Assembly: GCF_003797945.1 (NCBI RefSeq)
Contig: NZ_RKKU01000008.1
Span: 62,001 to 126,000 of the forward strand
Source: Pseudomonas neustonica
GTDB taxonomy: Bacteria > Pseudomonadota > Gammaproteobacteria > Pseudomonadales > Pseudomonadaceae
Direction: 5' to 3'
DNA length: 64,000 bases
The position numbers and the translations under genes are program-made. Of this stretch, positions 9,719-30,903 are shown one piece after another (the first letter of the stretch is position 1; every line of letters begins with the position of its first letter). Under the pieces are notes generated by a model, which had not been told where the DNA came from, did no database searches, and worked only from the letters and a program-made list of their open reading frames with translations.

Positions 9719-9887
9719 GATTATTCGTGCGGCATGCAGGCGGGCCAGGCACAGTCGGCATTGCTTCACGTTACTCACACCACAGCAGAAGTCAGCTCAT
9801 CTGCAATATAGCGCTGCAACAACCGTATTAGCGAACTATCATAGGCAACAGGGGACATTCCATATTGCCATTATAAGTAGTCAGACT

Positions 9888-10666
9888 ATGCTCAACCGCC
9901 CAAGCGAGTCGCCGTTCAATTTGGGCCACGCCATATTCAGCAAAAAGAATACCTTGGCGTGGTTCGTGCTCGCAGTTGCCCTTTTGACTACGTTGCTGGC
10001 CTGGCAATATCTACACACGCGGGAACAGGCATCGGCCCAGCGTCAATTTGAGATAGTCACAAGCGATATTGCCTCATCAATACGCAAGCGGATGGTCGAT
10101 CACGAGCAGATTCTGCTTGGTGCCACCGGACTTATTGACGCCAGCGAAGTGGTCACCCGGCAAGAGTGGAAGCGACAAATAGAGCGCCTGCGTTTGGCTG
10201 AGCATTACCCCGGTATTATGGGAGTGGGTTATTCCGCCGTCATTGCGCCCGAAAATCTCGCTGCATTTGAAGCTGATGTGCAGGCTGAAGGCTTCCCCGG
10301 TTTCCGCGTTCACCCTGAGGGAGAACGCGCTCTTTACACTTCAATCCTGTTTCTTGAGCCCTTTTCTGGCCGAAACCTTGCCGCTTTCGGCTTTGATATG
10401 TACTCGGAGCCAACCCGACGCCAAGCAATGCAAGCGGCTGCAAGTAGCGGCCAAACTCGAGTAACAGGTGCCGTCAAACTGCTGCAAGAGACCCATGGTG
10501 AGGTTCAGGCAGGCATTCTTATGTACGTGCCTGTCTATACGTCAGAGCGCTCCTTGGCCACGGATTCATTGCGCAACTCGGCGCTTAAGGGCTTCGTTTA
10601 CAGCCCCTATCGCATGGGGGATTTGCTCGATGGCATACTCGGGGAGGAAAACGTTCGGATTGACTA
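9888..10666 (+). pseudogene. 5' fragment of a CHASE hybrid histidine kinase gene, cut by a transposon
   Basis: The fragment encodes about 259 residues: a membrane helix (LAWFVLAVALLTTLLAWQYL, about 25-45) and most of a CHASE sensor domain (about 75-259), ending RGFVYSP-like sequence FVYSPYRMGDLLDGILGEENVRID. The frame stops at TAG 10665-10667, formed by the last bases of the target site plus the first base of the transposon. The rest of the gene is at 28467-30246. Joining base 10666 to 28467 restores an uninterrupted frame of 853 codons including the stop (VRID-YRLTD across the joint). CHASE domains bind small ligands outside the cell. The fragment lacks all kinase parts, so it cannot signal alone. 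Confidence 0.93.
10662..10666. repeat. Target site duplication GACTA, left copy
   Basis: GACTA directly abuts the left inverted repeat and is repeated at 28462-28466 directly after the right inverted repeat. Five bases is the normal duplication length for Tn3-family transposition. Confidence 0.95.
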
Positions 10667-10701
10667 GAGGGTCCGACGGTATCCTGGAAAAATCCGCCAA
10701 A
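10667..10701 (+). repeat. Left terminal inverted repeat of the Tn3-family element
   Basis: The 35-bp end begins GAGGGTCCGACGGTATCC and ends TCCGCCAAA. It differs from the right end at positions 8, 14, 17 and 25 only. The tnpA stop is 78 bp inside it. Confidence 0.95.
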
Positions 10702-10778
10702 TCAACCCTAAGTGTCTGAATTTAAAGGGAATATCCGGGGGTGTTCGTTATCTGGCATTAAGCACCACCATTATCGGG

Positions 10779-13766
10779 CTAACTTATGATCTTGGCGTTA
10801 AAATTCAGGGGTTGGACCTTGCGTCTCAAATCCAGGGTGTAGTCGCCAAAGCGGTTGATATGGGCCGTGCGGTACGGCGATAGCCCGCCCAAAACCTCCT
10901 TGGTGAGGCCTTGCCCGTCGTCGGCAAATGTTTTTAATGCCTGCGTCATCTGTTCGACGTTGTGCAGTATGACCATGTTGGCTACCAGCTGATTGTATTT
11001 GACGACCTTGCGCTGCTCGTGCCGGATATTCTCCGCAATGATCCCCTGCCCACCGAAAAACAACCACTTGGTAAAGTTGTTAAATTCTTCACTCTTGTTA
11101 GTAGCTGAATGGATGGTCTCGCGCAGTTCAATTTCATCAATGTACCGCAGTAAGAACAGCGTTCGAACCACTTTCCCGAGCTCTCGGAAAGCGAAATACA
11201 GCTTGTTTTTACGGCTGTAAGTTCCGAGACGGCGAAGGATTGTGGAAGCGGTAATCTGCCCTTTCTTGATAGAGACGGCGACTCGGAGCATGTCGCGCAA
11301 ATGGGTTTCGATCAACTTGAAATTCACGTGCCCTGTAAACAGTGAATCGATATTTTGGTAACGGTATCGCTTATCGGGTCGGCACAGCGTCAGGTCTTGG
11401 ATGTTGCGGATGCGCGGCATCAGATTAATGCCCAGCAGATAGGCCAACCCGAACACAGGGTAGCTCTGCGCCTGAGTATCACCGTGCAGTGTATCGGGCT
11501 GGATGTCGGACTTATTACTCATCAGCCCGTCGAGGATGTAAACGGCTTCGTACACCCCGCAGGGAATAAAATGGCTAAACAGCGCAATGTAGGTGTCGGA
11601 TACGTGATAGTAACCAATGCCGCCGTAGCCCCCATAGCGGATGTGGTATTCGGAGAGCAGATTCTGCTCATAAAGATCCCACTTGGTACCGTCTGCCGAG
11701 ACGTGGCGGCCGGTACCCCAGTATTTTGGCAAGTCGAACTTGTTGTAGGCGTTCACCACCTGAACGATGGCTTTATCCAGTCGTTCCTCGGTTGCGTGTT
11801 TGAGGTTGAGCCAGGCTACTTGCCGCGAGCTGATGCCTTTGATGGAACGCGCTGTCTGTGTGGGCCCCAGGTTGCATCCATAGCAGAACAGGGTTGTGAT
11901 GAATCGCTTCTGGGCTTCGTTCAGGCGAGACTCGTTGCCCGACAAGGGCGTGAAGTTGCCGTGTAAATTGAGCCACTTTTCGGTATCGGTTAATACATCG
12001 ATGATGCTGGTCTGCGGAAGAGTTTGGGTGATGAGCTCGTCGAGCTTTTTCAATTCACTGGTGGGTAGTTCAGCCTTGTGTCGGCGTAACACCAGTCGCC
12101 CATTTTGGATGTCCGCGTGCAGGTTTTTCGGGAACCGTTCATCTACCCTCCGGGAGGCCTCTGTAAGCAGGTCTTTCAGATGGACGCAAAATGCCTTGGG
12201 CTCGCTCAGCGGTAACTCCACCTGCTGGGCGTACTCCTCAAGCTCCGCATCGAGTGTCTCATCATCAATCAGTTGCTCCCGATAATCATCAAATTGGGCA
12301 CTGTGTGGTATGTGAAGATCGCCCGATGACAGCTCCTGTTTGATATGGATCAGTATCCACAACTCCAGGTACTTGCGGTGCAATAGATCATAGTCACCCG
12401 ACTGTTCGGACTTAATGAGCACCAACTTTCGCCACTTCTCCGGCATCCAGCCGGGGTCAAAGGTTTCGCCCATGGTGTCGCTGGCAGCCGCGATTTTAAT
12501 GTACTCTGCACGGCTCGGCTGCAGAGAGCGAAAGAGCGTAAGCAACGCGTTTGAGCTGGTATCGTTGGAAGTGGATTTGAGTTCCAAAATGGTAAGGCAA
12601 TTGAACAAGAGTGCCCGCTTCTGGCGATAGGGTGCGAGCATAAAGGGAAAGTAATTGTTGCCGGAATAAGCCATGTGCTCGTTGCAGCGGTCGATCAGCG
12701 TACCGCTGTTTTCGCCAATGATGTCCTCAATCGAGGACAAGCGCTGTTGCTGAGAGGTGTCTTGTTCGTAGGCTGTCAGCACATCCTTAAAGGTCTCTAT
12801 CAACCGATCAACGTGTTTTTGGTGGTCCAGGAGGTATTGCTGTAACGCCGCCTGGGCGTGACTTTCCATGGCGCGAACCATACGGATGAGCAGTTCGGCC
12901 ACATCATCAAGCGCCTTGCTGTGTTGATTGCGCGTCAGGATGACCGCCAATGCATAACGTTTATTGAATTTCAGGTCGGCCATCTCGGTCGCGTTCAGCG
13001 CACGCGCCTCCAACGCCAGCTGCCGGTGTTTGACGATAGGTAACTTGATCGCAGGCATCTCTTCGCCAAGCGTCTGCAGCCAGTGCACATGCTGAAGATA
13101 GCTACGCACCTCCTTGTTGCCGGGGCGCTTCGGTTCGCGTTTGAGAATATGCCAGGCACTGTAGGTCTGGCCGTTCGGTGAGAGCAGCTCATTAATCTTC
13201 TGCTTCGCCTCGTCAGTAAGCTGGGAGGTGATGGCGCTAAAGCAGCGCTCGTTCACGTGGTTCCGTGCACGCCGTGCCGTACGTTTCAGAACGGTGAAAC
13301 CCGGCAACTCAAAACGATGGCGCACCAACTCTTCGAGCATGACGTTCACGATGTCCGCAAGCATTTCCTTGGTTTCCGCCGCATCCAGAGCAATCTCGTA
13401 AAGCCACTTATTGTCGGTGCCCGCCAAGGGCTTAACATCCAGGTAGGTCCGGATCTGCCTCAGGTGTCGGTGCTTGGCCCCGGATCGGTCGTACTGTAGG
13501 AGCTGCGTTTGGGTCGGAAGCTTTCTAAACTGACACTGGAGACCGACATGCTCAATGATTTCCCGTGGCACCGCCGCGAGGGACTGAAAATAGCCCAGGC
13601 GCTGAAAGAGCTTAAGATGAAGCAACAGACCCAATCGGGCCACCGGTGTTTTGGCCAGTCGACCCCAGAGCTGCTCAGTGTCGGACGGCGTATAGGATTC
13701 TTGCAGCTCTTTTTCGGTGATTTCGGATTTCAGCCGCGGGTAGGCTGTTTCGTGCAGGCTGCTCAT
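10779..13766 (-). CDS. tnpA: Tn3-family transposase
   Basis: A 995-residue transposase, the usual size for Tn3 family TnpA. The N-terminal part (about 1-170) is the DUF4158-type end-binding region; the C-terminal half is the DDE domain. Catalytic residues can be placed in SADGTKWD (Asp near 690), HGDTQAQ (Asp near 762) and NKSEEFNNF (Glu near 892). The frame is full length and undamaged. TnpA pairs the two 38-bp-class ends and inserts them replicatively, leaving a cointegrate that must be resolved by a recombinase. The gene reads toward the left end; the recombinase gene lies 18 bp upstream and is probably co-transcribed. Confidence 0.96.
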   Translation of the reverse strand: MSSLHETAYPRLKSEITEKELQESYTPSDTEQLWGRLAKTPVARLGLLLHLKLFQRLGYFQSLAAVPREIIEHVGLQCQFRKLPTQTQLLQYDRSGAKHRHLRQIRTYLDVKPLAGTDNKWLYEIALDAAETKEMLADIVNVMLEELVRHRFELPGFTVLKRTARRARNHVNERCFSAITSQLTDEAKQKINELLSPNGQTYSAWHILKREPKRPGNKEVRSYLQHVHWLQTLGEEMPAIKLPIVKHRQLALEARALNATEMADLKFNKRYALAVILTRNQHSKALDDVAELLIRMVRAMESHAQAALQQYLLDHQKHVDRLIETFKDVLTAYEQDTSQQQRLSSIEDIIGENSGTLIDRCNEHMAYSGNNYFPFMLAPYRQKRALLFNCLTILELKSTSNDTSSNALLTLFRSLQPSRAEYIKIAAASDTMGETFDPGWMPEKWRKLVLIKSEQSGDYDLLHRKYLELWILIHIKQELSSGDLHIPHSAQFDDYREQLIDDETLDAELEEYAQQVELPLSEPKAFCVHLKDLLTEASRRVDERFPKNLHADIQNGRLVLRRHKAELPTSELKKLDELITQTLPQTSIIDVLTDTEKWLNLHGNFTPLSGNESRLNEAQKRFITTLFCYGCNLGPTQTARSIKGISSRQVAWLNLKHATEERLDKAIVQVVNAYNKFDLPKYWGTGRHVSADGTKWDLYEQNLLSEYHIRYGGYGGIGYYHVSDTYIALFSHFIPCGVYEAVYILDGLMSNKSDIQPDTLHGDTQAQSYPVFGLAYLLGINLMPRIRNIQDLTLCRPDKRYRYQNIDSLFTGHVNFKLIETHLRDMLRVAVSIKKGQITASTILRRLGTYSRKNKLYFAFRELGKVVRTLFLLRYIDEIELRETIHSATNKSEEFNNFTKWLFFGGQGIIAENIRHEQRKVVKYNQLVANMVILHNVEQMTQALKTFADDGQGLTKEVLGGLSPYRTAHINRFGDYTLDLRRKVQPLNFNAKIIS

Positions 13767-13784
13767 GGCTCACGCTCGCTCCAG

Positions 13785-15026
13785 TTAGTCCCACGTCGTC
13801 CCAGTGGCAGGATTCATGATTGTCGCCTCGAGCATGCACTGGTGGTCATTGGCTAAGGCGTGCATTTGCGCGAGCAGCTCATCCAGAACCTCATCAAGGT
13901 GCTCCGGGCTGTCATGTGTGATTGTGATGTGATACTGCGTTCCTTGCTCATTGAGCCTGGCCATGGCCCAGTTGGCAAAGCACACGCGCTCGATAAGCTC
14001 ACGGACTTTCTTTATGCTGCGCACTTGGCTGTTATAGCGCTCCAACCGAAGGGTCACCTCCAGCAGTGTCGATTGCGCCAAAGAAGGAGCGGCCTGATGG
14101 CCTTCCAGGCTCTGCTCTATCCGATGCTGGGCGAACGGGTCAGGTGCATCGATGTAGCGCATTGCGGAATGAACGTCTCGCCATCCCACATACTCCATCA
14201 AAGACTTTGTGTCCCAGCGCTGGCCATTGGCCCAGCTCGCAAACCCTCGGCGCAAAGAGTGGCTGCTGAAAGCGTCTGAGCCCTCTATGCCTGCCGCTTG
14301 GCAACAGGATCTGACGATGGTGATGATACTGTTCGGATGCAGAGCTTCATTCGCAAGTTGGCCCCAACGGTTAATGGCCCGAAATACCGGCCCTTGCTTG
14401 ATCTGTGCCGCGTTAGTCCATTCCAAATAGGCTTCTACAGGACACAGTTGCCTGAGGGCCGGCGCTTTGAAGTAACGCCCTTGCCCGGAGCGGTCGCTTT
14501 TGGTGCGGGGCAGGTAAATCTCCATGCCCGAGCCAGGCTCCACCTGAATATGCTCCGCATGGAGCCGCCCCAACTCGTCGCTGCGAAAGGCCCGCCAAAA
14601 ACCGATCAGCATAAGTGCTTTGTTGCGAAGCGGTTGCAATGGCAACCGGTGTGTATCTTGTCGAGCAATCTGCTGGTCCAGGTGCGATACGATGGCCGTC
14701 AGCTGCACCAACTGGAGGGGTCTGGCCCGCTTTTCTGGGGCAGGGTGCAGTTCGGCAATGCCCTTGAGCACCTTTTTAACATGCGGTGCTTTGGTAGGAT
14801 CGGGAAAACCTTGCTCAAGGTGCCAGGCCGCCAGACCCGCCAGTCGTTGGCGCAGGGTGTTTAGTGAATGAGCGCGCGCGTGGTCAACCAGGTAACGTGC
14901 AACACTGTCGGCCGTGGCCGGCAGAAACCCGCCCCATTCGTCCTCAAAGTGGCGGACTGCTCCTTGGTAGGCTTTGCGAGTATTGGCGCGGGTGCCCGCG
15001 CGTATGTAGTGGTCAATGCTGCTCAT
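13785..15026 (-). CDS. Tyrosine recombinase with C-terminal extension, candidate cointegrate resolvase
   Basis: A 413-residue tyrosine site-specific recombinase. A SAM-like core-binding domain (about 1-105) is followed by a catalytic domain with Arg in FWRAFRSDELGRL (near 145), HSLRRGFASW (His and Arg near 256-259), the VGW pattern in place of GH, and the Tyr in HSAMRYID (near 290). About 115 residues follow the catalytic Tyr, much longer than usual, with a helical stretch (LLEVTLRLERYNSQVRSIKK) and an end rich in His and Glu. Tn3 elements of the Tn4430 and Tn4651 types resolve cointegrates with tyrosine recombinases, so this is the likely resolvase; no recognisable res site lies directly upstream. 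Confidence 0.85.
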   Translation of the reverse strand: MSSIDHYIRAGTRANTRKAYQGAVRHFEDEWGGFLPATADSVARYLVDHARAHSLNTLRQRLAGLAAWHLEQGFPDPTKAPHVKKVLKGIAELHPAPEKRARPLQLVQLTAIVSHLDQQIARQDTHRLPLQPLRNKALMLIGFWRAFRSDELGRLHAEHIQVEPGSGMEIYLPRTKSDRSGQGRYFKAPALRQLCPVEAYLEWTNAAQIKQGPVFRAINRWGQLANEALHPNSIITIVRSCCQAAGIEGSDAFSSHSLRRGFASWANGQRWDTKSLMEYVGWRDVHSAMRYIDAPDPFAQHRIEQSLEGHQAAPSLAQSTLLEVTLRLERYNSQVRSIKKVRELIERVCFANWAMARLNEQGTQYHITITHDSPEHLDEVLDELLAQMHALANDHQCMLEATIMNPATGTTWD

Positions 15027-15049
15027 GCCGACCTTTTAATTTTGGCGAA

Positions 15050-15484
15050 TTATGGACTTAGCGTCCCCAGTATTTCCAGAGCCGCGACGTCGAACGTATA
15101 GACGCCTTCAAACGCTTGGCCCCACTCGCGTGCTTGGCGCATGGCTTTATTCACAACGAGTGCGTCGGGAAAGTCAGCGCTCTTTTTCTTGCCACCGACC
15201 TTCACCGGCCGCGCCTTCTTATAGTCATTCAGAGCACGCCACACAGTCTGCCTATCCTCAAAGACAATGTTCGGCTCTGCAAACAGCGCACTGATCACGC
15301 CAGCAATGGCCTCGCGGTCAAGCTTGTAGCGCTTACCCGTTAGAACCCACATTGTCTCCACCAACACGACATCCGTCACCAGAGCGGGTACAGAGCCCGT
15401 GATCAGTGATACGGCCTTATGCGACTGAGCCTTATCGTCCAGCAGTAGGTAACGAAGCAGCACATTGGTATCAATGGCAATCAC
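15050..15484 (-). CDS. PIN-domain toxin (VapC type)
   Basis: A 144-residue PIN-domain protein, the usual VapC length. Acidic active-site residues are visible in IAIDTNVLLRYLL (Asp near 5), VVLVETMWVL (Glu near 44) and SADFPDALV (Asp near 105), with FDVAAL near the end. VapC toxins are Mg-dependent ribonucleases that cut tRNA or rRNA. Its start overlaps the stop of the antitoxin gene by four bases, the normal toxin-antitoxin arrangement. It sits between the recombinase and the metal cargo, so it may stabilise the element or its host replicon. Confidence 0.85.
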   Translation of the reverse strand: MIAIDTNVLLRYLLLDDKAQSHKAVSLITGSVPALVTDVVLVETMWVLTGKRYKLDREAIAGVISALFAEPNIVFEDRQTVWRALNDYKKARPVKVGGKKKSADFPDALVVNKAMRQAREWGQAFEGVYTFDVAALEILGTLSP

Positions 15485-15702
15485 GCACCGATACCGTTTT
15501 GGCGGGAATCGTCCTCACTCACCTGGCGATCCACACGGATGCCCTTGAGAATCCCGCGCGCGGCTCCTGAGACCTTTTTGATGATGGTAATGTGGCCATC
15601 GTTGTCCACGTAGCTGTCGTATTCATCACCAGGCTCAATGCCCGCCAGCCGACACTGATCCACAGGCAAGGTGATTTGTCGTTTTGAGCTGACTTTTGGC
15701 AT
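15481..15702 (-). CDS. AbrB/SpoVT-type antitoxin
   Basis: A 73-residue protein with a swapped-hairpin AbrB DNA-binding domain at the N-terminus (MPKVSSKRQITLPVDQCRLAGIEPGDEY has the conserved sequence S-x-K-x-Q-I-T-L-P and G-I-x-P-G-D) and a charged C-terminal tail that would wrap the PIN toxin. Antitoxins of this type bind both their toxin and their own promoter. A short inverted repeat (CTTTAC/GTAAAG) lies just upstream. Confidence 0.85.
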   Translation of the reverse strand: MPKVSSKRQITLPVDQCRLAGIEPGDEYDSYVDNDGHITIIKKVSGAARGILKGIRVDRQVSEDDSRQNGIGA

Positions 15703-15712
15703 GACTAGAACC

Positions 15713-15737
15713 CTTTACATTAATCAATAGAGTAAAG
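15713..15737 (-). promoter_or_regulatory. Candidate autoregulatory operator of the toxin-antitoxin pair
   Basis: CTTTAC at 15713-15718 and GTAAAG at 15732-15737 form an inverted repeat 11 bp upstream of the antitoxin start, where AbrB-type antitoxins usually bind. The arms are short, so this is a candidate only. Confidence 0.4.
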
Positions 15738-15823
15738 ACTACCGGCCTCTTTGCTTCAGGTCAAGAAGTAAAGGAAATGGCGCTGACCTCGATCTAAACC
15801 CTCAGACAGGGCGCACTCGCTCT

Positions 15824-15851
15824 ACAAAACCGATTGATCATCGGTTTTTGT
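15824..15851. promoter_or_regulatory. Inverted repeat upstream of the BlaI-like gene, candidate operator
   Basis: ACAAAACCGAT (15824-15834) is repeated in inverse as ATCGGTTTTTGT (15840-15851) with one extra T, around a 5-base centre. It lies 48 bp before the GTG start of the BlaI-like regulator, and could be its own operator. It does not match the classical TACA-N2-TGTA CopY box. Confidence 0.5.
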
Positions 15852-15899
15852 GCTTCTATACTCTAGCTCATCTTCTCACGACCCGTCGCCGGAAAACCT

Positions 15900-16319
15900 G
15901 TGACTCAAGACACCCCTGATAAACTTGCCATTCCACCATTAGGCACTCTCGAAGTAGCGGTGCTGGTACATCTGTGGCGAGTCCCGGAGGCGTCCTCCAA
16001 AGAGGTACATGCTGCCATTGGTGTGGCGCGCGGCATTTCAGTGAATACTGTGCAGTCCACATTGGAACGGCTGTATCGGAAAAAGCTGCTAAAGCGCTTC
16101 AAGGCTAGCCATGCATTCCGGTATGCCCCACAGATGGCCCGTGAGCAGCTGGTAGCCGGTCTGGTCAACGAGGTGCTCAGCCGCTTCGGCGGCGATACCG
16201 CTTCTTCGCTGGCGGCGTCCGTCGAAGCGGCGAATTGGCTGAACGAGGAAGCCTTGCATACGCTAGAGGCTGAACTTAAAAATATGCGTACGCGCGGCGA
16301 AGCTCTTCATGTGCGGTAG
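15900..16319 (+). CDS. BlaI/MecI/CopY-family transcriptional regulator
   Basis: A 139-residue protein with a winged helix of the BlaI/MecI/CopY (penicillinase repressor) family: LGTLEVAVLVHLWRVPEASSKEVHAAIG, then the recognition helix region ISVNTVQSTLERLYRKKLL. The C-terminal half would hold the dimerisation helices. BlaI and MecI are inactivated by proteolysis from a BlaR1 sensor, and CopY by metal; here no BlaR1-type protease gene is adjacent and no Cys-x-Cys metal motif is seen at the C-terminus, so the inducing signal is unclear. The start is GTG with weak upstream GGAAAA. It lies between the toxin-antitoxin pair and the metal genes, and is the only cargo regulator in the element. Confidence 0.8.
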   Translation: MTQDTPDKLAIPPLGTLEVAVLVHLWRVPEASSKEVHAAIGVARGISVNTVQSTLERLYRKKLLKRFKASHAFRYAPQMAREQLVAGLVNEVLSRFGGDTASSLAASVEAANWLNEEALHTLEAELKNMRTRGEALHVR

Positions 16320-16331
16320 CATTTTTTGACC

Positions 16332-16868
16332 TTACAGATGGCTCGACAGGATCCAAACACCGGCTCCGATTAGTGTCAGCCCGTCTAAGATCTCGGTCTT
16401 TTGGCCAATTAACGATCCAATTGCCCGTCCCAACATCACTCCAAGCGTAACCATAACGGTCGTCGCCAGACCAATCAGGGCCGCCGCAGTTCAGATGTTG
16501 ACGTTGATGAATGCCAGGCCAATACCTACAGCCATGGCATCCATGCTCGTGCCGATGGCTGTCAAAGAAACCTTGAGAAATGACTGCCTGGAGGGCTTCG
16601 ACACTTCTTCAGCGCTGGGTTTCAGGCCTTCATAAAGCATGTGCAGCCCTAGAGCAACCAATAGCGCAAACGCTATCCAGTGATCCCACGCCTCAACGTA
16701 AGTCGATGCCGATTTACCAAGCAACCAGCCGACTAAAGGTGTTGCTGCTTCAATTGACCCAAAGATAAGACCCATTCGCAGGGCTCCGCCCGCCCCTTTG
16801 CTGATCGCGGCGGCAAAGGCATCGGTGGACATCGCAAGGGTAAGCAAAAGGAGAGCAATCGGGTTCAT
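16332..16868 (-). pseudogene. mntP: Manganese exporter MntP, broken by one in-frame TGA
   Basis: The frame encodes a 178-residue MntP-like protein with six membrane helices if one internal stop (codon 126, TGA at 16491-16493) is read as Trp. The first 125 residues contain both copies of the Asp motif ([15 protein letters not shown] and [13 protein letters not shown]), and the part after the stop ([22 protein letters not shown]...) continues the family without any shift. A single TGG to TGA change explains this. MntP exports Mn2+. As it stands, the last two helices are lost and the gene is probably inactive. A sequencing error or a suppressor could also explain it. Confidence 0.85.
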
Positions 16869-16954
16869 GCGGTCTGCTCCGGCCGGGCGACTCGAGTCTA
16901 CGAAAGACCCACACGCCCGACTTCCGGCATGGAGCTATCGATGGTCTCGCCAAC

Positions 16955-16999
16955 CGAGAGGTGTTTGCACCATTGCGTCCCAAGGTCCACCACCTCTCG
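16955..16999. other. Hairpin-forming repeat in the mntP/czc divergent region
   Basis: CGAGAGGTG (16955-16963) and CACCTCTCG (16991-16999) are exact complements around a 27-base loop that itself holds GGTG-TTTG-CACC. It is 87 bp from the mntP start, so it could be a leader RNA structure or a protein-binding site. I could not match it to the yybP-ykoY manganese riboswitch by eye. Confidence 0.4.
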
Positions 17000-17029
17000 A
17001 GATTGGGGAAACCGAACAGAATGCGGGTT

Positions 17030-17059
17030 TTGACCTAAGGGTTTCCTTAGTGGTAGTGT
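17030..17059 (+). promoter_or_regulatory. Candidate metal-responsive promoter of the czc operon (MerR-like layout)
   Basis: A -35 hexamer TTGACC (17030-17035) is followed by a dyad CTAAGG-GTTT-CCTTAG (17035-17050) and a possible -10 TAGTGT (17054-17059), spacer 18 bp. A dyad filling the spacer next to TTGACC is the layout of MerR-family metal promoters. The first gene of the operon starts 33 bp after it. The element has no merR-type gene, so the regulator would be elsewhere or of another family. Confidence 0.5.
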
Positions 17060-17092
17060 CCCGGCCTTAGTTTGGAGAGTCTGTCCGCTTTG

Positions 17093-17455
17093 ATGAAGAA
17101 TCGTTGGGTAACAATCGTTTTAGCACTGGTGATTGCTCTGCAGTCACTGGCGGCTATTGGCGATACAAACCAACCTCATTATTCCACGACGCCTCATCAT
17201 GATCACGAGCACTCTCAGGAAGTGGCCGTAATTGACTTTAGCGCTCTGGGTACAGAGTCGTCTTCCTTCTTGTCTGACTCTTCACCGGACCACTCGTCGG
17301 ACCATAGCCATCAAAACCATGCCCACTTTCACGTAGTGCTGGTGAGCGTGGCAACGGATATTGTCATTTCGGCAGGCGGTCAGCTTCTGTCCGCCTACCA
17401 AGCCAGCCATAATTCCGTCACGTCACCCTCTTTGTTCCGCCCTCCTATCGCATAA
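17093..17455 (+). CDS. Small His-rich exported protein at the head of the czc operon (CzcI-like position)
   Basis: About 120 residues, starting at ATG 17093 (MKNRWVTIVLALVIALQSLAA), which opens a clear signal peptide; an earlier TTG at 17072 is less likely. The mature part is rich in His and Asp/Ser (TTPHHDHEHSQE, then DHSSDHSHQNHAHFH), which suits periplasmic metal binding. The C-terminus ends SLFRPPIA. In czc loci a small exported protein called CzcI often precedes czcCBA and ends in a similar Arg-Pro motif; length, position and His content match, but the sequence resemblance is modest. The gene probably shares the promoter at 17030 with czcC, 60 bp downstream. Confidence 0.7.
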   Translation: MKNRWVTIVLALVIALQSLAAIGDTNQPHYSTTPHHDHEHSQEVAVIDFSALGTESSSFLSDSSPDHSSDHSHQNHAHFHVVLVSVATDIVISAGGQLLSAYQASHNSVTSPSLFRPPIA

Positions 17456-17515
17456 TCCTACGATCTATCCCGCTCGGGACACACTTACCATTTAGATCTT
17501 CGTAGGAGAAGCTCC

Positions 17516-18817
17516 ATGCTTTTTTGCAAGCCCATGGAAACTGGGCGGCGTTTACAGCCGCGCCAGAGCTATTTTCAAATATTGTTTCTGTTCACATTGG
17601 TGTTCAACGTTACCACTACTCACGCTGAAGAGAGGCCCATCAGCCTTGCCGACGCGCTGTCCCGAACAATGGCGCAAAACCCCAGTCTGCAGGTGTTTGA
17701 CTTTCGACTGCAGGGGCTCGAGGGACGCCGACTGTCAGCCGATCAGGCACCGGCCTATGTGGCGGGGCTGGAGGTGGAAAATGTCCTCGGTAGTGGTGAC
17801 CTTAGGGGGGCTGACAGGGCCGAATACACCTTGTCGCTTTCTTCGGTCATTGAATTGGGAAGCAAGCGTCAGGCTCGTACTGGCGTTGTGAACTCCCGAT
17901 ATGACCTCGTAAAGGCCGAACGGGAAGCCAAGACTCTGGAACTTTTGGGCGAGGTGACGCAACGCTATGTCGCCACTCTGGCTCTGCAGAAAAAGCTCGA
18001 TTTATCCGCTCAGGCCATGGCGTTGAGCGAGACAACCCTGAACACAGTTACCCAACGCGCCAAACAGGGCGCTGCACCTGAAGCCGAAGTTTTACGCGCC
18101 AAGGCGGCTCTTGCCCAAAGCCAGCTCGCCCACGACGCTCTGCAAACCGAGTACGAGAAGCGGAAAGTGGCACTGGCCTCACTGTGGGGGGAAACACGGG
18201 TGGATTTTCAGCGGTTGCAGGGCGACCTGTTCCGGTTTGAGCCTAGCGAGCGGTTCGAGGTGCTCTACCAGCAAGCGCGGGAGAGCCCAATGATTCGAGT
18301 CTATGCCAGCGAGCGGCGTATGCGCGAGGCTGAGATCCGCCTGGCACGAAGCCAATCGGAAAGTGACATTCGCTGGCAGCTTGGTGCTCGTCGTTTCGAG
18401 GAGTCGGGTGAAGCTGCGCTGGTGGCGGGAATATCCGTGCCGCTGTTTTCCGGATCTCGAAACCGGGGTGAGGTGCAATCGGCCATGGCGGCACGCAATG
18501 AGGTGGAGTACCGCCAACAGAGCGCGCTACTGAAACTCCACTCCCTCTTGTTCGAGGCTTTTCATACCCGTCAACAAAACATTGATGCGGTTGAGCGGCT
18601 GCGCTCCACTGTCCTGCCCGATCTCACGAAAGCCCTCGAGCTTACCCAAAAAGCCTATGAGCGCGGCCGCTACAGCTATGTTGAGTGGACCGCCGCACAG
18701 CGTGAACTGCTTTCGGCCCGCGAGGCACTCGTCGAAGCAGCCGCAACGGCGCTGCTCAATCAAGCTCTTATCGAACAGCTCACGGCGCAGCCCATGACTC
18801 AAGGCCACGCCCGCTAA
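17516..18817 (+). CDS. czcC: Outer membrane channel of the CzcCBA cation efflux pump
   Basis: A 433-residue TolC-family outer membrane factor. After an exported N-terminus (FQILFLFTLVFNVTTTHAEE) come two outer-membrane-efflux repeats (about 45-220 and 240-425) with long helices such as LLGEVTQRYVATLALQKKLDL and the turn PEAEVLRAKAALAQSQ. It forms the exit duct that docks on the inner-membrane pump CzcA through CzcB. GTAGGAGAA precedes the ATG at 17516. czcB follows after 22 bp. It is called CzcC from its operon position and from the HME1-type CzcA; CusC-like proteins are similar in sequence. Confidence 0.88.
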   Translation: MLFCKPMETGRRLQPRQSYFQILFLFTLVFNVTTTHAEERPISLADALSRTMAQNPSLQVFDFRLQGLEGRRLSADQAPAYVAGLEVENVLGSGDLRGADRAEYTLSLSSVIELGSKRQARTGVVNSRYDLVKAEREAKTLELLGEVTQRYVATLALQKKLDLSAQAMALSETTLNTVTQRAKQGAAPEAEVLRAKAALAQSQLAHDALQTEYEKRKVALASLWGETRVDFQRLQGDLFRFEPSERFEVLYQQARESPMIRVYASERRMREAEIRLARSQSESDIRWQLGARRFEESGEAALVAGISVPLFSGSRNRGEVQSAMAARNEVEYRQQSALLKLHSLLFEAFHTRQQNIDAVERLRSTVLPDLTKALELTQKAYERGRYSYVEWTAAQRELLSAREALVEAAATALLNQALIEQLTAQPMTQGHAR

Positions 18818-18839
18818 CCAAACACAGGATTATTGAACC

Positions 18840-23194
<4,355 letters not shown>

Positions 23195-23521
23195 CGAACC
23201 AGCAGGCTCCGGGCACGCCTGGAGCCTGTTTCCGCAAGGAAACCCTGACGGGCGCAGCACAACTGTGGGCGCGCCCGCCACTCAATTCCATAATCACATG
23301 TGATTACTTCGATCACCTCCAAAAAAATTGAAGGTATTATGCTTAAACTCCTACCTGAATCAGTGACTCCGCTCGAATATAGCACCCTGAGCCTTGGTTG
23401 GCTCACGCCTAACTCATTTTTGAAGCCAGTTTGGTTGTGTTGAGAGCACGGTCGTCATTCTACCGATTGTAACGGCTGCAAACCGGCCCTGCTTTGATTA
23501 AATATCGATCAAATTGTGATT
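23195..23521. other. Gap between czcA and the IS1380-family insertion
   Basis: No convincing gene. A 7-bp GC-rich stem (AGGCTCC with GGAGCCT, about 23203-23228) lies soon after the czcA stop and could end transcription, though only a weak T-rich stretch follows. The rest is probably the remnant of the spacer that joined czcA to the hupE-like gene before the insertion. Confidence 0.5.
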
Positions 23522-24983
23522 CTCAGGCACGGGCGATCTGCCCAACAAGATGATCGGGGTGAGATCAAGCAACGAATCGATCTGAGTTGTCTACCCGGGA
23601 GACGAAAGGCCTCGATAGAGGTCACGATAAACGACAAAACCCGGGCAATGGCGGCCAAAGCGCAGGAACCGTTGCCTACTGCTGTGGATCAGGCGACAGG
23701 CCATGTACATCAGCTCCTGCATCACGGTCCTCAGGCGGCGGCGTTTGGCCGGGTGGCGCACAGGTGCATCCGGGCCGGTGAGCCTCAGTCCCATCCAGCG
23801 CAGTACGTTGTAGCCCAGCGTTGCAAATGCCATCACCAAGTTGTTGGTGGCGAACTTGCCAGAAGGCAAGCGCTCCAGATCCAGATCGGTTTTGAACTCA
23901 CTGTGGAACTGCTCACTGGTGGCATGATCGCAATACAAGTCTATAACCTGCTGGTTGCTGGCAACACTCACTGGCAGTGATGTCACCCAGCCTTCCAGAC
24001 TGACTTCCGGTTCCAGATATAACTGGCCCTGCGCATCACTGGTGCGAACCGTCACTTTGACGACCCGGCGAATGCCGGGTTCGTCCGGTAGTTCTTCCGA
24101 CAGAACCGCTTCCATTTTGCCGCAGCGGCCCAGCGTCCAGACTTGCTGCTCCTGAGCTTTGTCAGCCCAGACCAGAGGGTCTTGTTTACGAGGATTCCAC
24201 TTGATCAGGAAATCCACTTGTTCTTGCTGACTCAGAAAATCCCGGTTGTCGCGGGCATCGTGGGCACTGTCCAGACGCAGCAGGATGGGCGAACCAGTCA
24301 GTGACCGGGCCCGGGGTAAGACGCGTTTCAACGTTTCCAAAAAACCGTTATTGGCGTGTTGGCTGCCGGGGCGCAGTTCACACCCTAGACACCAGCCTTC
24401 CTGACCAAGGTAAGCAGCAATGGGCGCATAGCCGTCGTGCCCCTTGTAGGTGTAACTGACGCCTTCCTTGTTCGTCTGACTGTTATCCATAGGGAAAACG
24501 TCCATGTCCAAGGCCACATGCCCCATTTTCAGGGGAGAAACTGGGGCTTCGACGGACTTCAAAAACTCACAGCTGGCATCCTCCAATAAGGGCGTGAGCG
24601 CCTGGGCATCTTCATCAAATCGCTGCCGTAATCGGGCCGAGGAGGGCGATTGTTTAATCCCCATAGCGTCTTTAAAAAAGGGATCTGTACGCGCTGACTC
24701 CACGGCCTCGAAATCGCTCTTGCCGAGCGTGATCAAGCCCAGATAGGTCCGGATCAGGTCGATGTTCGGAATACCGTGACGCTTGACCACGGTGCGGGCG
24801 GTTTGGGGCAGCGACGTGTGCCGATTCAGGCAGTGGCCCACCAGAGCCAGCCCGCCGTGGGGAGTGTAGACTTCGGTCTTTGATTGCTGGAGGGTGAAGG
24901 TACGCATGGGCCGATGCACTGACTGGGTGAATGGATGTCAGGTGCGATTATACTGCTTCAGGCCTTGCGGTTGCAGGTCTGGG
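23522..24983 (-). mobile_element. IS1380-family insertion sequence (ends tentative)
   Basis: A single transposase gene fills this stretch. I place the ends by a possible 4-bp duplication GATT (23518-23521 and 24984-24987) and weak end similarity (CTCAGGCACG at the left against CCCAGACCTG read inward from the right, 6 of 10). This gives 1462 bp, slightly short for the family, so the limits may be off by tens of bases. It separates czcA from the hupE-like gene and reads against both. Confidence 0.55.
23591..24919 (-). CDS. IS1380-family transposase
   Basis: A 442-residue DDE transposase of the IS1380 (DDE_Tnp_1-like) group. Recognisable parts are the N-terminal TPHGGLALVGHCLNRH, the first acidic block VALDMDVFPMDNSQTNKEGVSYTYKGHDGYAPI, then ILLRLDSAHDARDN, and the late YCDHATSEQFHSEFKTDLDLERLPSGKF carrying the catalytic Glu, followed by the family's ALGYNVLRWMG-like segment. 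The frame is complete, so the insertion may still be active. An internal ATG four codons in (MRTFTLQQSKTEV) may be the true start. Confidence 0.92.
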   Translation of the reverse strand: MHRPMRTFTLQQSKTEVYTPHGGLALVGHCLNRHTSLPQTARTVVKRHGIPNIDLIRTYLGLITLGKSDFEAVESARTDPFFKDAMGIKQSPSSARLRQRFDEDAQALTPLLEDASCEFLKSVEAPVSPLKMGHVALDMDVFPMDNSQTNKEGVSYTYKGHDGYAPIAAYLGQEGWCLGCELRPGSQHANNGFLETLKRVLPRARSLTGSPILLRLDSAHDARDNRDFLSQQEQVDFLIKWNPRKQDPLVWADKAQEQQVWTLGRCGKMEAVLSEELPDEPGIRRVVKVTVRTSDAQGQLYLEPEVSLEGWVTSLPVSVASNQQVIDLYCDHATSEQFHSEFKTDLDLERLPSGKFATNNLVMAFATLGYNVLRWMGLRLTGPDAPVRHPAKRRRLRTVMQELMYMACRLIHSSRQRFLRFGRHCPGFVVYRDLYRGLSSPG

Positions 24984-24999
24984 GATTAAATTAGACCGT

Positions 25000-25881
25000 G
25001 TGAAGTCACGGATTCAGGTCCTAATTATCATCATTACGTCCCTTGCCAGTGTTGCGGCCTGGGCGCATGGCATGTCGGCGGAAGACCAAGCCCGGATACT
25101 CAATGCGGGCTACCTGGAATACATTCGGCTTGGCGCCACCCATATGCTTAGCGGCTATGATCATTTGCTGTTTCTGTTCGGTGTTATGTTCTTTTTGACG
25201 CGCTTTAGCGAGATCATCAAGTTCATCACCGCCTTCACCATCGGTCATTCCATTACCCTGGTGTTCGCCACACTGTTCGGAATTACCGCCAATTACTACC
25301 TGATTGATGCGGTGATTGCGCTGACCGTCTGTTACAAAGCCTTCGACAACCTCGGCGGCTTTCAGAAACACTTGCAAATGAAATCCCCGAACCTGACCTG
25401 GATGGTGTTTGCCTTTGGTTTGATCCACGGGTTTGGCCTGTCCACTCGGCTTCAGCAGTTGCCGCTGGGCGACGATGGTCTGGTGTTCAAAATATTATCG
25501 TTCAATGTCGGCGTCGAAGTGGGACAGATTGTGGCTTTGAGCATCATGCTGGCCGTGCTTATGGTGTGGCGAAAAACCGCATCGTTTGAGCGCTTCAGCA
25601 AAGCTTCCAACGTGGGGCTGATGCTTGCCGGTGGTCTGTTGCTGCTGATGCAGTTACATGGGTTTCAGCACACGCAGTACCCGGATGATTTTCCGCTCAA
25701 CCGGGATGATCACCAACATACCCACGAAGACATGGCGGATAAAAAAGCACCGCTATCGAGCTACCCAAGACGCCTCGAATTACGAGGGCCATCCGCCGAC
25801 ACAGAGGGCGAAGAGCCGGCTGAACAAGCCAGTGAACCTGAAGTCCATCGCCACGAGGACGGTGAACCCCACTCCCATTAA
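25000..25881 (+). CDS. HupE/UreJ-2 family membrane protein
   Basis: About 293 residues of the HupE/UreJ_2 type. The motif YIRLGATHMLSGYDHLLFLFGVMFFL, then FTIGHSITL and FGLIHGFGLS, place it in a family proposed to move Ni or Co; seven membrane helices fit. The C-terminal tail is long and rich in His and acidic residues (DDHQHTHEDM, VHRHEDGEPHSH). I favour the GTG at 25000 because it opens a signal-like segment (VKSRIQVLIIIITSLASVAAWAHG); a frame from 24931 would begin inside the IS. The IS ends only about 16 bp before this start, so the original leader is probably lost. It likely belonged to the czc operon. Confidence 0.78.
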   Translation: MKSRIQVLIIIITSLASVAAWAHGMSAEDQARILNAGYLEYIRLGATHMLSGYDHLLFLFGVMFFLTRFSEIIKFITAFTIGHSITLVFATLFGITANYYLIDAVIALTVCYKAFDNLGGFQKHLQMKSPNLTWMVFAFGLIHGFGLSTRLQQLPLGDDGLVFKILSFNVGVEVGQIVALSIMLAVLMVWRKTASFERFSKASNVGLMLAGGLLLLMQLHGFQHTQYPDDFPLNRDDHQHTHEDMADKKAPLSSYPRRLELRGPSADTEGEEPAEQASEPEVHRHEDGEPHSH

Positions 25882-25906
25882 TCATATTAAACTTCGAGGA
25901 ACCCTT

Positions 25907-26257
25907 ATGAAGCTCTTTACTGCCATTTTCACACTTGTTTTATTGGTCGGATCTCAACAGGTGCTTGCACACAGTGACCATGCCCATAAGTCGATTTCAG
26001 AAAAATCGGCGCTTGAGCGTGGCAGAGCGGCAACTATGCAACTAACCGAAAAAGACGCAGGCTTAGGCTTCGGAAAGCTTCCCGAAAGCTGGGAGGTAGT
26101 TCCTGAAGACGCCGTAAAAATCCATAAGAAAGGCAGCGGTTATTTCATCGTATCGGTCACCAATCGGGCTGAAGCTCAAACACTTTACGTGCTCCTATCG
26201 AGTGACGGGGGAGTTTACGATGTAAATTTTACGGGTGAATTCGACGGTTTGGAGTAG
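25907..26257 (+). CDS. Small exported protein, DUF6488-like
   Basis: A 116-residue protein with a signal peptide (MKLFTAIFTLVLLVGSQQVLA) and a mature N-terminus HSDHAHKS that could bind metal. The middle (LPESWEVVPEDAVKIHKKGSGYFIVSVTNR) and the end (GGVYDVNFTGEFDGLE) resemble DUF6488 proteins found in metal loci; I know of no tested function. The ATG at 25907 has GAGGAA upstream, 25 bp after the hupE-like gene. I suggest a periplasmic metal-binding or sensing role from context only. Confidence 0.65.
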   Translation: MKLFTAIFTLVLLVGSQQVLAHSDHAHKSISEKSALERGRAATMQLTEKDAGLGFGKLPESWEVVPEDAVKIHKKGSGYFIVSVTNRAEAQTLYVLLSSDGGVYDVNFTGEFDGLE

Positions 26258-26264
26258 AGCATAC

Positions 26265-26624
26265 ATGACATGGCATTGGATCATAACCAAATATCTGATT
26301 ACCGCCGCCGTCGTGGTAGTGGTTTCCGAGGTCGCCAAACGCAGCGACAAGCTGGGCGCTTTGGTTGCGGCATTACCGTTGGTGACGATTCTGGCGCTGA
26401 TTTGGTTGCACGTAGAAACGCACTCGACAGAAAAAGTGGCGAATCACGCTTGGTATACGTTCTGGTACGTGGTGCCGACACTTCCGATGTTTTTAATATT
26501 TCCGACGTTGCTGCCCCGAATCGGCTTTTGGCCTACGCTGTTAGCCAGTGCTTTGGTGACCGCAGCCTGTTTTTGGCTATTTTCGTTACTGGTTGGGCAG
26601 CTTGGCATTGAATTGAAGCCGTAG
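26265..26624 (+). CDS. DUF3147-like small membrane protein
   Basis: A 119-residue protein with four hydrophobic helices (LITAAVVVVVSEVAKR, ALPLVTILALIWLHV, WYVVPTLPMFLIFPTLLPR, ALVTAACFWLFSLLVG), the pattern of DUF3147. Function unknown. I chose the ATG at 26265 (MTWHWIITKYL), 7 bp after the previous stop. With the two genes before it, it forms a three-gene cassette attached to the czc operon, which suggests a shared role in metal handling. Confidence 0.65.
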   Translation: MTWHWIITKYLITAAVVVVVSEVAKRSDKLGALVAALPLVTILALIWLHVETHSTEKVANHAWYTFWYVVPTLPMFLIFPTLLPRIGFWPTLLASALVTAACFWLFSLLVGQLGIELKP

Positions 26625-27022
26625 GGAGTGTTACCAGCGTTTTTGTCGAACGAACATCCGCAAAACGGGGCGAGTGTAACGCTGGCCTCGTTCGCGGTTC
26701 CCGTAGTGTGGGCACAATTCAGAGCGGTGCAAGACACTTTTGAGTTATTCCCTTGAGTACAATCGAAAAGAGCTGTCCTAATTGACAGAGCCGCTGTAGC
26801 GTCAATTCGACAATTACGTCCAGTTTGGCCTCTTGCAACGTGTCTAAATAGACTCCATCTGTACGCATTTTGGCGTCGAGCTGAAGAAAATTCACCCTAA
26901 CATAAGATAATCTATTATTATCCTGTGTCATATCTAAGCTATACAAAGTCTAAAGCACGAGCTAAAATCGTATGTATATACATAGTGCGTAATACAGTAC
27001 GAAATAAGCAGGAGGGAATTCC
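26625..27022. other. Intergenic region upstream of the KfrA-like gene
   Basis: No convincing gene. A weak frame of about 70 residues on the minus strand (26719-26931) has no ribosome site and no family likeness. A perfect 14-bp palindrome TATGTATATACATA (26971-26984) and GATAAT/ATTATC half-sites (near 26906-26922) lie just upstream of the KfrA-like gene and could be operators, or part of a recombination site. A good AGGAGG precedes the ATG at 27023. Confidence 0.5.
26971..26984. promoter_or_regulatory. 14-bp palindrome, candidate KfrA-like operator
   Basis: TATGTATATACATA is a perfect palindrome 39 bp upstream of the KfrA-like start. KfrA-type proteins repress their own promoters, so autoregulation is plausible. 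Confidence 0.45.
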
Positions 27023-28042
27023 ATGGCACGTGGCGGTATCAACAAAGCACTGGTGACCAGGGCCCATCAGGCCGTTCTAGCCAGGGGGGAAAACCCCTCC
27101 ATTGACGCGATACGTATAGAGCTCGGTAATACCGGCTCCAAATCAACGATTCATCGCTATCTCAAAGAGCTGGAGGAGGAGGCGTCCACCAGACTCGACG
27201 ATGAGGCCCTATTGAGCCAGCCCATTAAGGACCTCATTGCGCGCCTGGCATCGCGCCTTCAGGAAGAGGCCCACGGCATCGTCGAAGAGAGTAAAAGCCG
27301 CTATGAACACCAGATCAAAGAGCTCTCTGACCGCTGCACCGCGCTCACTCAAGAGGCTGGCCAGCTGGGCGATCAGCAGAAAGTGTTGGAATCGCGCCTT
27401 GATGAGACGAGTGCGCAACTGGCTGCCAAATCCGCAGCCTGCGATGCCTTAGATAAACAACTCAACGAGGCGGGTCAGCGCGAGGCCAGCACGACGGCGC
27501 TGCTCAAGGAAAAGCAGGCTCATATCGAATCCCTTGAGGAAAAGCACCGTCACAGCCGGGAGGCACTGGAGCATTATCGTGAATCGGTGAAAGAGCAGAG
27601 GGATCAGGATCAGCGCCGGCATGAGCAACAAATTCAGCAGCTTCAGGCCGAGATTCGCACGTTAAACCAGACAATCTCCGTCAAGCAGGGCGACCTGACC
27701 CAGCTCAACAAGGATAACGCGCGCCTGGTGAGCGAGTTGGGCGCTGCGCGCAAAGCAACACAGGACCTCGAATCGAAGCTTAATCGGACTGACGCGAAGC
27801 TTGAAGATGCCAATAAGCAATTGCAAACCCAGACGACGGATCTGCAGCAGTACGCCGACAGCGCTCAGCGCCAGGCCTCGCAAATTGATGAGCTGACGCA
27901 ACGCCTTGAATCGGCGCAAAGCAAGGTGCAAGATTTTACCGTCAGCCAGGCCAAACTGGAGACTGAGCTATCGGTTAAGAACGATATGATTGAGCGCCTA
28001 ATGGCTGAAAACCGGCGCCAATATGACGCACCGGCTACGTAA
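27023..28042 (+). CDS. KfrA-like coiled-coil DNA-binding protein (TnpT-like candidate)
   Basis: A 339-residue protein with an N-terminal KfrA-type helix-turn-helix domain (about 5-75: GGINKALVTRAHQAVLARGENPSIDAIRIELGNTGSKSTIHRYLKEL) and a very long coiled coil (about 85-330) rich in Gln, Glu and Lys. The end is a short conserved-looking tail LSVKNDMIERLMAENRRQ. KfrA is a plasmid-stability protein and repressor; in the Tn4651 group of Tn3 transposons a similar protein, TnpT, assists the TnpS tyrosine recombinase. As this element has a tyrosine recombinase but no serine resolvase, a TnpT-like role is likely. It sits alone at the opposite end from tnpA. Confidence 0.8.
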   Translation: MARGGINKALVTRAHQAVLARGENPSIDAIRIELGNTGSKSTIHRYLKELEEEASTRLDDEALLSQPIKDLIARLASRLQEEAHGIVEESKSRYEHQIKELSDRCTALTQEAGQLGDQQKVLESRLDETSAQLAAKSAACDALDKQLNEAGQREASTTALLKEKQAHIESLEEKHRHSREALEHYRESVKEQRDQDQRRHEQQIQQLQAEIRTLNQTISVKQGDLTQLNKDNARLVSELGAARKATQDLESKLNRTDAKLEDANKQLQTQTTDLQQYADSAQRQASQIDELTQRLESAQSKVQDFTVSQAKLETELSVKNDMIERLMAENRRQYDAPAT

Positions 28043-28340
28043 GCGGGAGGTGATCCAGAATTACTTATTGGCTGTCCCAGATTTTCCTTTGAAATCAATG
28101 AGATGCAGAGTTAGTGGCTGAATTTTACAGTTTTACCGACCGGCCTCAAACTGGAGGCGGAGCTATCGGTTAAGAACGAGATGATTGGGCGTCTAATGGC
28201 TGAAAAGCGGCGTCAACACGACAAACCAGCCACTTAAGGAACGGGGCTACAGAGCCTTACAAGGTTTTCAGTATTTCCACTTGCAATCAACGATATACAG
28301 AACATTCGGCTAAATTTAGCACTATTACCGGCCGCACCTC
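27934..28340 (+). repeat. Degenerate tandem repeat of about 195 bp covering the KfrA-like 3' end
   Basis: Unit A (27934-28130) spans the last 36 codons of the KfrA-like gene and its downstream spacer; unit B (from 28131) repeats it with many substitutions, and a third start (ACCGGCCGCACCTC, about 28325-28340) begins again. Offsets are 197 and about 192 bp. The coding part of A and B is clearly similar, the spacer less so. Confidence 0.8.
28131..28237 (+). pseudogene. Decayed second copy of the KfrA-like C-terminus
   Basis: This is the coding part of repeat unit B. It still reads LEAELSVKNEMIGRLMAEKRRQ and ends at its own TAA (28235-28237), but it has lost two bases near its left edge relative to unit A, has no start and no upstream part. 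It is a relic of a duplication or of replacement of one KfrA-like tail by another. Confidence 0.8.
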
Positions 28341-28365
28341 GTGAAGAGCGTAGGGGAAGGTATCA
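28238..28365. other. Non-coding spacer at the right end of the transposon
   Basis: Spacer part of repeat unit B and the start of unit C, then a strong Shine-Dalgarno-like AGGGGAAGG (28352-28360) directly before the ATG at 28366. I see no gene. Confidence 0.5.
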
Positions 28366-28426
28366 ATGAAAGATCAAGGGTTTCTGAATAGCGAAAATAT
28401 TTTTGTTATCAATAGCTTATCTCAAC

Positions 28427-28461
28427 TTTGGCGGATATTTCCAGAATCCCGTCCGACCCTC
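28427..28461 (-). repeat. Right terminal inverted repeat of the Tn3-family element
   Basis: Read inward from the right, it begins GAGGGTCGGACGGGATTC and ends TCCGCCAAA, matching the left end at 31 of 35 positions. It is also read as codons in the fused kinase frame. Confidence 0.95.
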
Positions 28462-28466
28462 GACTA
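28462..28466. repeat. Target site duplication GACTA, right copy
   Basis: Directly follows the right inverted repeat and equals the left copy at 10662-10666. Confidence 0.95.
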
Positions 28467-30267: not shown

Positions 30268-30296
30268 ATGGCGGAGTGCCGGTGGCGCTCCGCCAT
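30268..30296. terminator. Hairpin between the convergent kinase and tpx genes
   Basis: ATGGCGGAG (30268-30276) and CTCCGCCAT (30288-30296) form a 9-bp GC-rich stem with an 11-base loop. The T run is weak on both sides, so termination may be inefficient. It lies between two converging genes. Confidence 0.6.
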
Positions 30297-30306
30297 GAAT
30301 CAAAAC

Positions 30307-30804: not shown

Positions 30805-30903
30805 GGTGACTCCTTATTGATGCCTCAGGCTTTGCACAATGCTGAGCCCGCAGGTGAAATAGCAACCCGTCAGGGCTGCCATGGTGACTGGTAATAGCTT
30901 GTC

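Follow-up and report, generated by a model that had tools for sequence, protein, structure and literature searches.

How did a sensor kinase gene of Pseudomonas neustonica come to be divided by 17.8 kb of metal-resistance DNA, and is this DNA one transposon or the product of several? The question is raised by a 64,000 bp stretch of contig NZ_RKKU01000008.1, called the window throughout, in which a sequence-only reading had described a complete Tn3-family transposon. The family, the limits and the target-site duplication of that element were upheld, but it is not a single simple unit, since two further right ends lie inside its right side and its recombinase gene, tnpS, is chimeric. We consider that a nested insertion, followed by deletion between two tnpS genes, accounts for the present structure, with a probability of about 0.78.

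The outer limits had been drawn from inverted ends matching at 31 of 35 positions, with GACTA at both edges, and both features were confirmed to the base. The transposon occupies positions 10667-28461 (17,795 bp) between the two GACTA copies. Extension of the terminal repeats by three bases gained nothing (31 of 38 matching), and when the 600 bp outside tnpA were scanned against the remaining region, the best inverted pair was formed by these same ends, accompanied by identical 5-bp flanks. The previously claimed removal of 10667-28466 was likewise reproduced in silico. It leaves 2559 bases with no base lost and no frameshift, encoding 852 residues and one stop, and the rejoined gene has the domain order CHASE-PAS-HisKA-HATPase-REC.

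Within these limits, the right side holds three right ends, terminating at 28461 (the outer end, A), 28340 (B) and 28147 (C), together with a second tnpT tail. Homology to an element of Pseudohongiella nitratireducens (L069) is unbroken from 26859 to 28149 (92%), through the right terminal repeat of L069 itself, and the second tnpT tail begins directly after end C. End C follows its tnpT tail by 104 bp and end B by 102 bp, while the outer right end lies 121 bp beyond end B. Compared with the Pseudohongiella end, C and B differ at 5 and 9 of 36 positions, and no stretch with 14 or fewer mismatches occurred in five letter-shuffled 64-kb copies. With a profile built from eight ends, among them an end in the same-genus genome G023 that resembles B, C reached 36.1 and B 41.3, and 30 letter shuffles of the window yielded at most 9.9. 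In the G023 element near this B-like end, TnpA matches from residue 91 on.

Two other candidates were not counted as ends. The stretch 10711-10746 (14 mismatches) is subterminal sequence beside the outer left repeat and falls below the profile threshold, as does a weak end-like stretch spotted by eye near the right end of element L059. In locus L065 (19404-19612), an end of the type belonging to elements with a short TnpS is located about 137 bp outside the end of an element with a long TnpS, indicating that both kinds land near each other elsewhere too.

TnpS in the window combines a Cre-like core (residues 1-303) with a C-terminal tail of about 110 residues. The core is 95% identical to that of Gilvimarinus xylanilyticus (L077), and 93% to those of G. 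algae (L078) and Pseudohongiella nitratireducens. For TnpS 1-303, TnpT and the toxin-antitoxin pair taken together, identity to the Pseudohongiella element ranges from 87 to 96%; TnpT, which was compared at full length with this element only, is 94% identical. The TnpA proteins of L069, L077 and L078 are just 46-47% identical to that of the window, whose closest relatives are in L059 and L060/L061 (68%), elements with TnpS cores 58 and 70% identical to ours. The tail is present in the window, L059 and L060/L061, and absent from L069, L077 and L078. Calculated per 40-bp bin, DNA identity to L069 does not exceed 55% before 14140 and is 85-100% from there onward, with the break inside tnpS. In approximately unbiased (AU) tests, a clade uniting the window with L069, L077 and L078 was rejected for TnpA (p 1.8e-84), and one uniting it with L059-L061 was rejected for the TnpS core (p 0.00011). 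By these comparisons, TnpS is a chimera, in which the core shares its lineage with TnpT and the toxin-antitoxin pair, and the tail with TnpA.

The same division is found across related elements. A scan of genome contigs kept 80 of 130 relatives. Of 80 loci with TnpS and TnpA matches, 58 had an adjacent full-length TnpA, giving 59 elements with the window, 28 of them non-redundant after removal of near-copies. Measured from the start of the match in the 80 loci and the window, TnpS lengths form two groups, 247-335 residues (39 proteins) and 413-425 residues (42 proteins, tail-bearing). TnpS of Tn4651 has about 323 residues and hence would lack the tail. Among the 59 elements, the tail state changes twice on the TnpA tree and six times on the TnpS-core tree, and a single clade of tail-bearers is compatible with TnpA (AU test, p 0.449) but rejected on the core (p 1.9e-41). 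In the non-redundant set, a difference in tail state occurs in 0 of the 147 pairs whose TnpA proteins share at least 50% identity, against 80 of the 134 pairs whose cores share at least 70%. TnpT identity, in turn, tracks the TnpS core (rho 0.76, Mantel p 0.0005; 16 elements) and not TnpA (rho 0.09, p 0.24; the same number of elements).

Because the tail follows TnpA and TnpT follows the core, the exchange point is placed inside tnpS. Across the set compared, TnpA, the ends and the TnpS tail behave as one exchange unit and the TnpS core with TnpT as another, with the crossover inside tnpS. On a plain reading, TnpA must fit the ends, and the core must fit TnpT and the resolution site, rst; viable crossovers would therefore fall between the two sets, inside or after tnpS.

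In the history that we propose, an outer transposon A, contributing the ends, TnpA and the TnpS tail, would have transposed into the kinase gene by the paste-and-copy route, duplicating 5 bp of the target. Either earlier or later than this insertion, a related element B would have inserted 121 bp from the right end of A, and an element C, of the TnpS/TnpT type and carrying PIN-AbrB genes, would have inserted into the tnpT tail of B. Recombination between the directly oriented tnpS genes of A and C would have deleted the intervening DNA. What remains would be tnpA and the outer ends of A, and the recombinase core, toxin-antitoxin pair, resolution site and TnpT of C with cargo between, joined by the chimeric tnpS. 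This history starts from features present in the sequence itself, namely the outer ends and their duplication, the three stacked right ends, the second tnpT tail, the chimeric tnpS and the rst-like palindromes, and we infer from them the order of events and the deletion step. As tnpA, tnpS and tnpT are open and accompanied by outer ends and an rst-like site, the whole unit may still be mobile. The outer ends should still move it, and TnpS with TnpT would resolve cointegrates at the rst site beside tnpT.

Other explanations were weighed; they are not fully exclusive, and the weights given to them do not have to add up to one. The first is one ordinary element of the Tn4651-like kind, with inner ends and a second tnpT tail produced by chance or local duplication. 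It would agree with an outer unit that is self-complete in its ends, duplication, tnpA, tnpS, rst-like site and tnpT, and a 92-bp tail duplication could arise locally. We nevertheless hold it to be very unlikely, considering that the two extra ends score far above the shuffles, each about 103 bp past a tnpT tail, and that the AU tests, which place the TnpS core and TnpA in different clades, disfavour it. The position of the left junction, at a homologous codon inside tnpS, and the repeated re-pairing of tail and core across the group are what would be expected if gene conversion (a double homologous exchange) had brought in the block from core to TnpT from an independent element C. The right junction, however, joins non-homologous positions: the terminal base of C directly adjoins the interior of another tnpT tail. 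Transposition accounts for such a join and a crossover does not, and an exchange of this kind is for us an unlikely origin.

One-ended transposition in Tn3-family elements also leaves a precise end and an internal junction, and C could have used its right end alone, with the other junction wherever copying stopped. Such an event would have to place the left junction, which is not random, in frame at the homologous codon of another tnpS, and it seems highly improbable. The misjoining of two transposons of this genome during assembly deserves mention in view of the 77 contigs, which probably reflect short-read data, but no reciprocal parts are left in the assembly, where TnpA has one further match (54%) and the tnpS-toxin-antitoxin and tnpT-end stretches have one match each. 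We give an artefact of this sort very little credence.

Several observations weigh against nested insertion followed by deletion. For B and C no left end is present, so that nesting is visible on one side only and the inner target duplications cannot be checked, and inner repeat C is one base short in comparison with L069. The hybrid is known from the 77-contig assembly alone. Among 36 other same-genus genomes, none gave a further long match to the stretch from tnpT to the right end, and in 390 same-order genomes the tnpS-toxin-antitoxin stretch has one other match (90%, G134); with the hybrid found in this genome alone, no intermediate is known. On the side of the comparisons, TnpT is visible in L077 only as a 117-residue piece (88%) and in L078 not at all, as both loci end there. 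The AU tests were made on quick trees with groups chosen after earlier trees had been viewed, and the TnpA test left one identical row set free. Finally, the 16-element TnpT set includes L069 and L079, which are the same contig in two collections, and the near-copies L060 and L061.

With regard to the target, 37 other genomes (24 of the same genus and 13 of the same order) were searched for kinase relatives, and the joined protein was aligned to the seven loci with the best placement. In six of them, which all belong to the same genus, the kinase is uninterrupted and aligns in one stretch spanning the junction; no insertion is present there in any of the six. Five of them (L002-L006) align nearly over the whole length at 73, 59, 59, 58 and 57% identity and L007 over residues 1-713 at 48%, whereas the seventh locus, L008, aligns over residues 444-845 alone. 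The closest kinase, that of G010, is 73% identical over residues 6-852, and the flanking DNA is colinear with G010 over 9808-10636 and 28573-31000 (71%). In two Gilvimarinus genomes the best kinase matches are partial, at 37 and 41%. These results support the earlier proposal that the host formerly had an intact gene of this architecture. A comparison with relatives for an empty site had been suggested as well; G010 has the single-copy site ATTGGTTATCA where this genome has ATTGACTACCG, and the duplicated bases are thus not a natural repeat there, although none of the relatives' loci examined has an identical empty site with GACTA.

The kinase gene is interrupted, as had been stated, but its full loss need not follow. 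The 5' half stops at a TAG composed of the final two bases of GACTA and the base with which the transposon starts. In the 3' half, the frame is open from an ATG at 28366, which lies within the right end of the transposon and is preceded by the purine-rich stretch AGGGGAAGG. Since this ATG is in frame with the PAS-HisKA-HATPase-REC half, a kinase without the CHASE sensor could still be translated from it; between 28040 and 28560, the + strand gave no sigma-70-like promoter match. The sequence-only reading had also taken the lack of decay in either half as a sign of a recent event. In comparison with G010, the 5' half has 106 silent and 67 amino-acid-changing codons among 254, and the 3' half 259 and 165 among 593, so that divergence is similar in proportion for both. 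Open halves only bound the age of the insertion; recency is possible but not demonstrated by them, and the insertion is not datable relative to the assembly of the hybrid.

By gene content and ends (Table 1), the element is classified as a Tn3-family transposon of the TnpS/TnpT (Tn4651-like) type, with czc-type cargo between tnpS and tnpT. It has the DDE transposase of ~950-1000 aa, the inverted repeats of ~35-40 bp (31/35) and the 5-bp target duplication of the family. Features of the subgroup are a tyrosine recombinase adjoining tnpA, tnpT (+) divergent from tnpS (-), though 12 kb separate them, and, judged by sequence alone, an rst-like site of two palindrome pairs beside tnpT. In 19 other regions scanned, 5-bp flanks were identical in five (L059, L061, L062, L064 and L065), and an end pair without identical flanks was present in L060, L067 and L069; L063 reaches its contig ends, and no pair was found in the other 10. 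In the same genome, contig C27 carries a second Tn3-family tnpA (L027, 2065-5034), 54% identical to that of the window, and the end of this element at 2006-2040 agrees at all 35 bases with that of L064, from a genome of another family. By 16S, the best identities are 90%, to two Marinobacter genomes and one Pseudohongiella; among eight named genomes queried, no match came from the two Gilvimarinus, Idiomarina or Noviherbaspirillum, and that in Duganella was short.

Table 1. Coordinates of the transposon, its cargo and the two parts of the interrupted kinase gene in the window.
Feature	Position	Strand	Basis
Kinase 5' part (CHASE)	9888..10667	+	Open reading frame; Pfam CHASE 9.3e-57; ends at insertion-made TAG
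Target-site duplication GACTA, left	10662..10666	.	Sequence
Outer left terminal repeat IRL-A	10667..10701	+	Inverted-repeat comparison
tnpA, Tn3-family transposase, 995 aa	10779..13766	-	Pfam DDE_Tnp_Tn3 7.1e-148; NCBIfam Tn3 transposase above cut-off
tnpS 3' part, C-terminal tail (~110 aa), tnpA lineage	13785..14117	-	Comparison with related elements
tnpS 5' part, Cre-like tyrosine recombinase core, residues 1-303	14118..15026	-	Pfam Phage_integrase 5.1e-12; Cre matches (PDB)
PIN-domain toxin-like gene	15050..15484	-	Pfam PIN 1.5e-06; 87% to L069
AbrB-type antitoxin-like gene	15481..15702	-	NCBIfam AbrB domain 1.8e-05, below cut-off; 96% to L069
Cargo: BlaI/CopY-type repressor	15900..16319	+	Pfam Penicillinase_R 2.2e-19
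Cargo: MntP-like fragment, C-terminus missing	16491..16868	-	NCBIfam MntP model positions 1-133/188, below cut-off
Cargo: czcCBA-type RND metal efflux operon	17516..23194 (17516-18817, 18840-20072, 20084-23194)	+	CusA/CzcA family, 1536.7 bits
IS1380-family transposase gene in cargo	23591..24919	-	NCBIfam transpos_IS1380 2.5e-105
Cargo: HupE/UreJ-like, DUF6488, PRK09272-type genes	24931..26624	+	Library matches (NCBIfam)
rst accessory palindrome (GATAATC..ATTATC), putative	26906..26922	+	Conserved columns upstream of tnpT, 16-element alignment; position read from sequence
rst core site (ATGTATATACAT palindrome and flanking repeat), putative	26970..27006	+	16-element alignment, weakest in L064; position read from sequence
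tnpT, KfrA_N-type coiled-coil helper of TnpS	27023..28042	+	Pfam KfrA_N 1.6e-24; 94% to L069
Inner right terminal repeat C (Pseudohongiella/Gilvimarinus-type right end)	28113..28147	-	Homology to L069; profile
Second tnpT 3' end, element B remnant	28148..28238	+	Copy of last 92 bp of tnpT (28147-28238); 85% to intact copy
Inner right terminal repeat B	28305..28340	-	Profile; 91% over 45 bp to tnpA-element end in same-genus G023
Outer right terminal repeat IRR-A	28427..28461	-	Inverted-repeat comparison
Target-site duplication GACTA, right	28462..28466	.	Sequence
Kinase 3' part (PAS, HisKA, HATPase, REC)	28467..30246	+	Open reading frame, Pfam; in frame from ATG 28366

The cargo region (15722-26858) was compared with L069 and L077, and at its left border also with L078. 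These elements share the backbone, with dissimilar DNA between the abrB-side and rst-side borders, as if the cargo had been replaced as a block. No shared recombination site was evident by eye at the left border in the window, L069, L077 and L078, or at the right border in the window, L069 and L077. The MntP-like gene, with about the last third of the model missing, is probably a remnant within the cargo; the ends of the IS1380 element were sought and not resolved. When 72,556 plasmid records were searched for near-identity to the element as a whole, 10 records were obtained, each with ~1% coverage or less and none with 80%, and there were no Rfam matches at the gathering score in 9000-31000.

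Among known systems, TnXocp1 of plasmid pXOCgx01 is described with passenger genes including czcCBA between tnpS and tnpT (PMC4619425), and this architecture is therefore already known. TnXocp1 and its relatives share with the window element the linked tnpA-tnpS, the accessory and core palindromes of rst and, in TnXocp1, comparable ends (34 bp); by description, our element differs in PIN-AbrB genes upstream of tnpS, the chimeric tnpS and the stacked inner right ends. Likewise, TnXax1 shares TnpS/TnpT resolution and ends that start with GAGG (PMC4619425, PMC7157771), and Tn4651 of plasmid pWW0 is the element from which the TnpS/TnpT rst site, located between both genes, was described (PMC7157771, PMC3606827). 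In a toxin-antitoxin survey of 190 Tn3 elements, TnHdN1.1 is given as the only TnpS/TnpT element with such a pair; this is PIN_3-RHH_6 between tnpS and tnpA, whereas the window has PIN-AbrB upstream of tnpS (PMC7157771).

The TnpS tail is homologous to the C-terminal extension, of ~110 aa, of the long serine resolvases examined, and profile matches were significant in both directions. The profile was seeded from 10 of the 42 tail-bearing TnpS proteins, leaving 32 independent, and the four serine proteins were selected via tail searches. The tail is fused to serine recombinases in L187 (7265-8158) and L192 (1468-2523), while in L193 (1447-1863) it sits on a short open stretch without a Pfam domain of its own. 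ParA-like genes adjoin L192, L193 and an example on a Vibrio mediterranei plasmid. No PDB match was obtained for the tail up to E 1, and none in Pfam (best 0.042, unrelated), NCBIfam or PHROG. The resolvases of ISXc5, Tn5044 and Tn1412 are of the long-extension kind. The likeness concerns the extension, the catalytic domain of such resolvases being of the serine and not the tyrosine type. Serine resolvases with such an extension are described in PMC12217951, and sharing of the tail between serine and tyrosine resolvases was not found in the literature.

We regard the chances as evenly balanced that the tail serves transposon resolvases as a portable accessory domain, attached to serine and tyrosine recombinases alike. 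In TnpS/TnpT transposons it would be inherited with the transposase side, marking a recurrent crossover inside tnpS at which transposition and resolution modules are re-paired. The element in P. neustonica offers a readable case of part-swapping in Tn3-family transposons, of which genes stay together and where the join can fall. If the proposal on the tail is true, it would act in resolution as a common control or tethering module, independent of recombination chemistry. Its occurrence on both serine and tyrosine resolvases, with no match in the libraries searched, makes what these enzymes may share directly testable by tail deletion.

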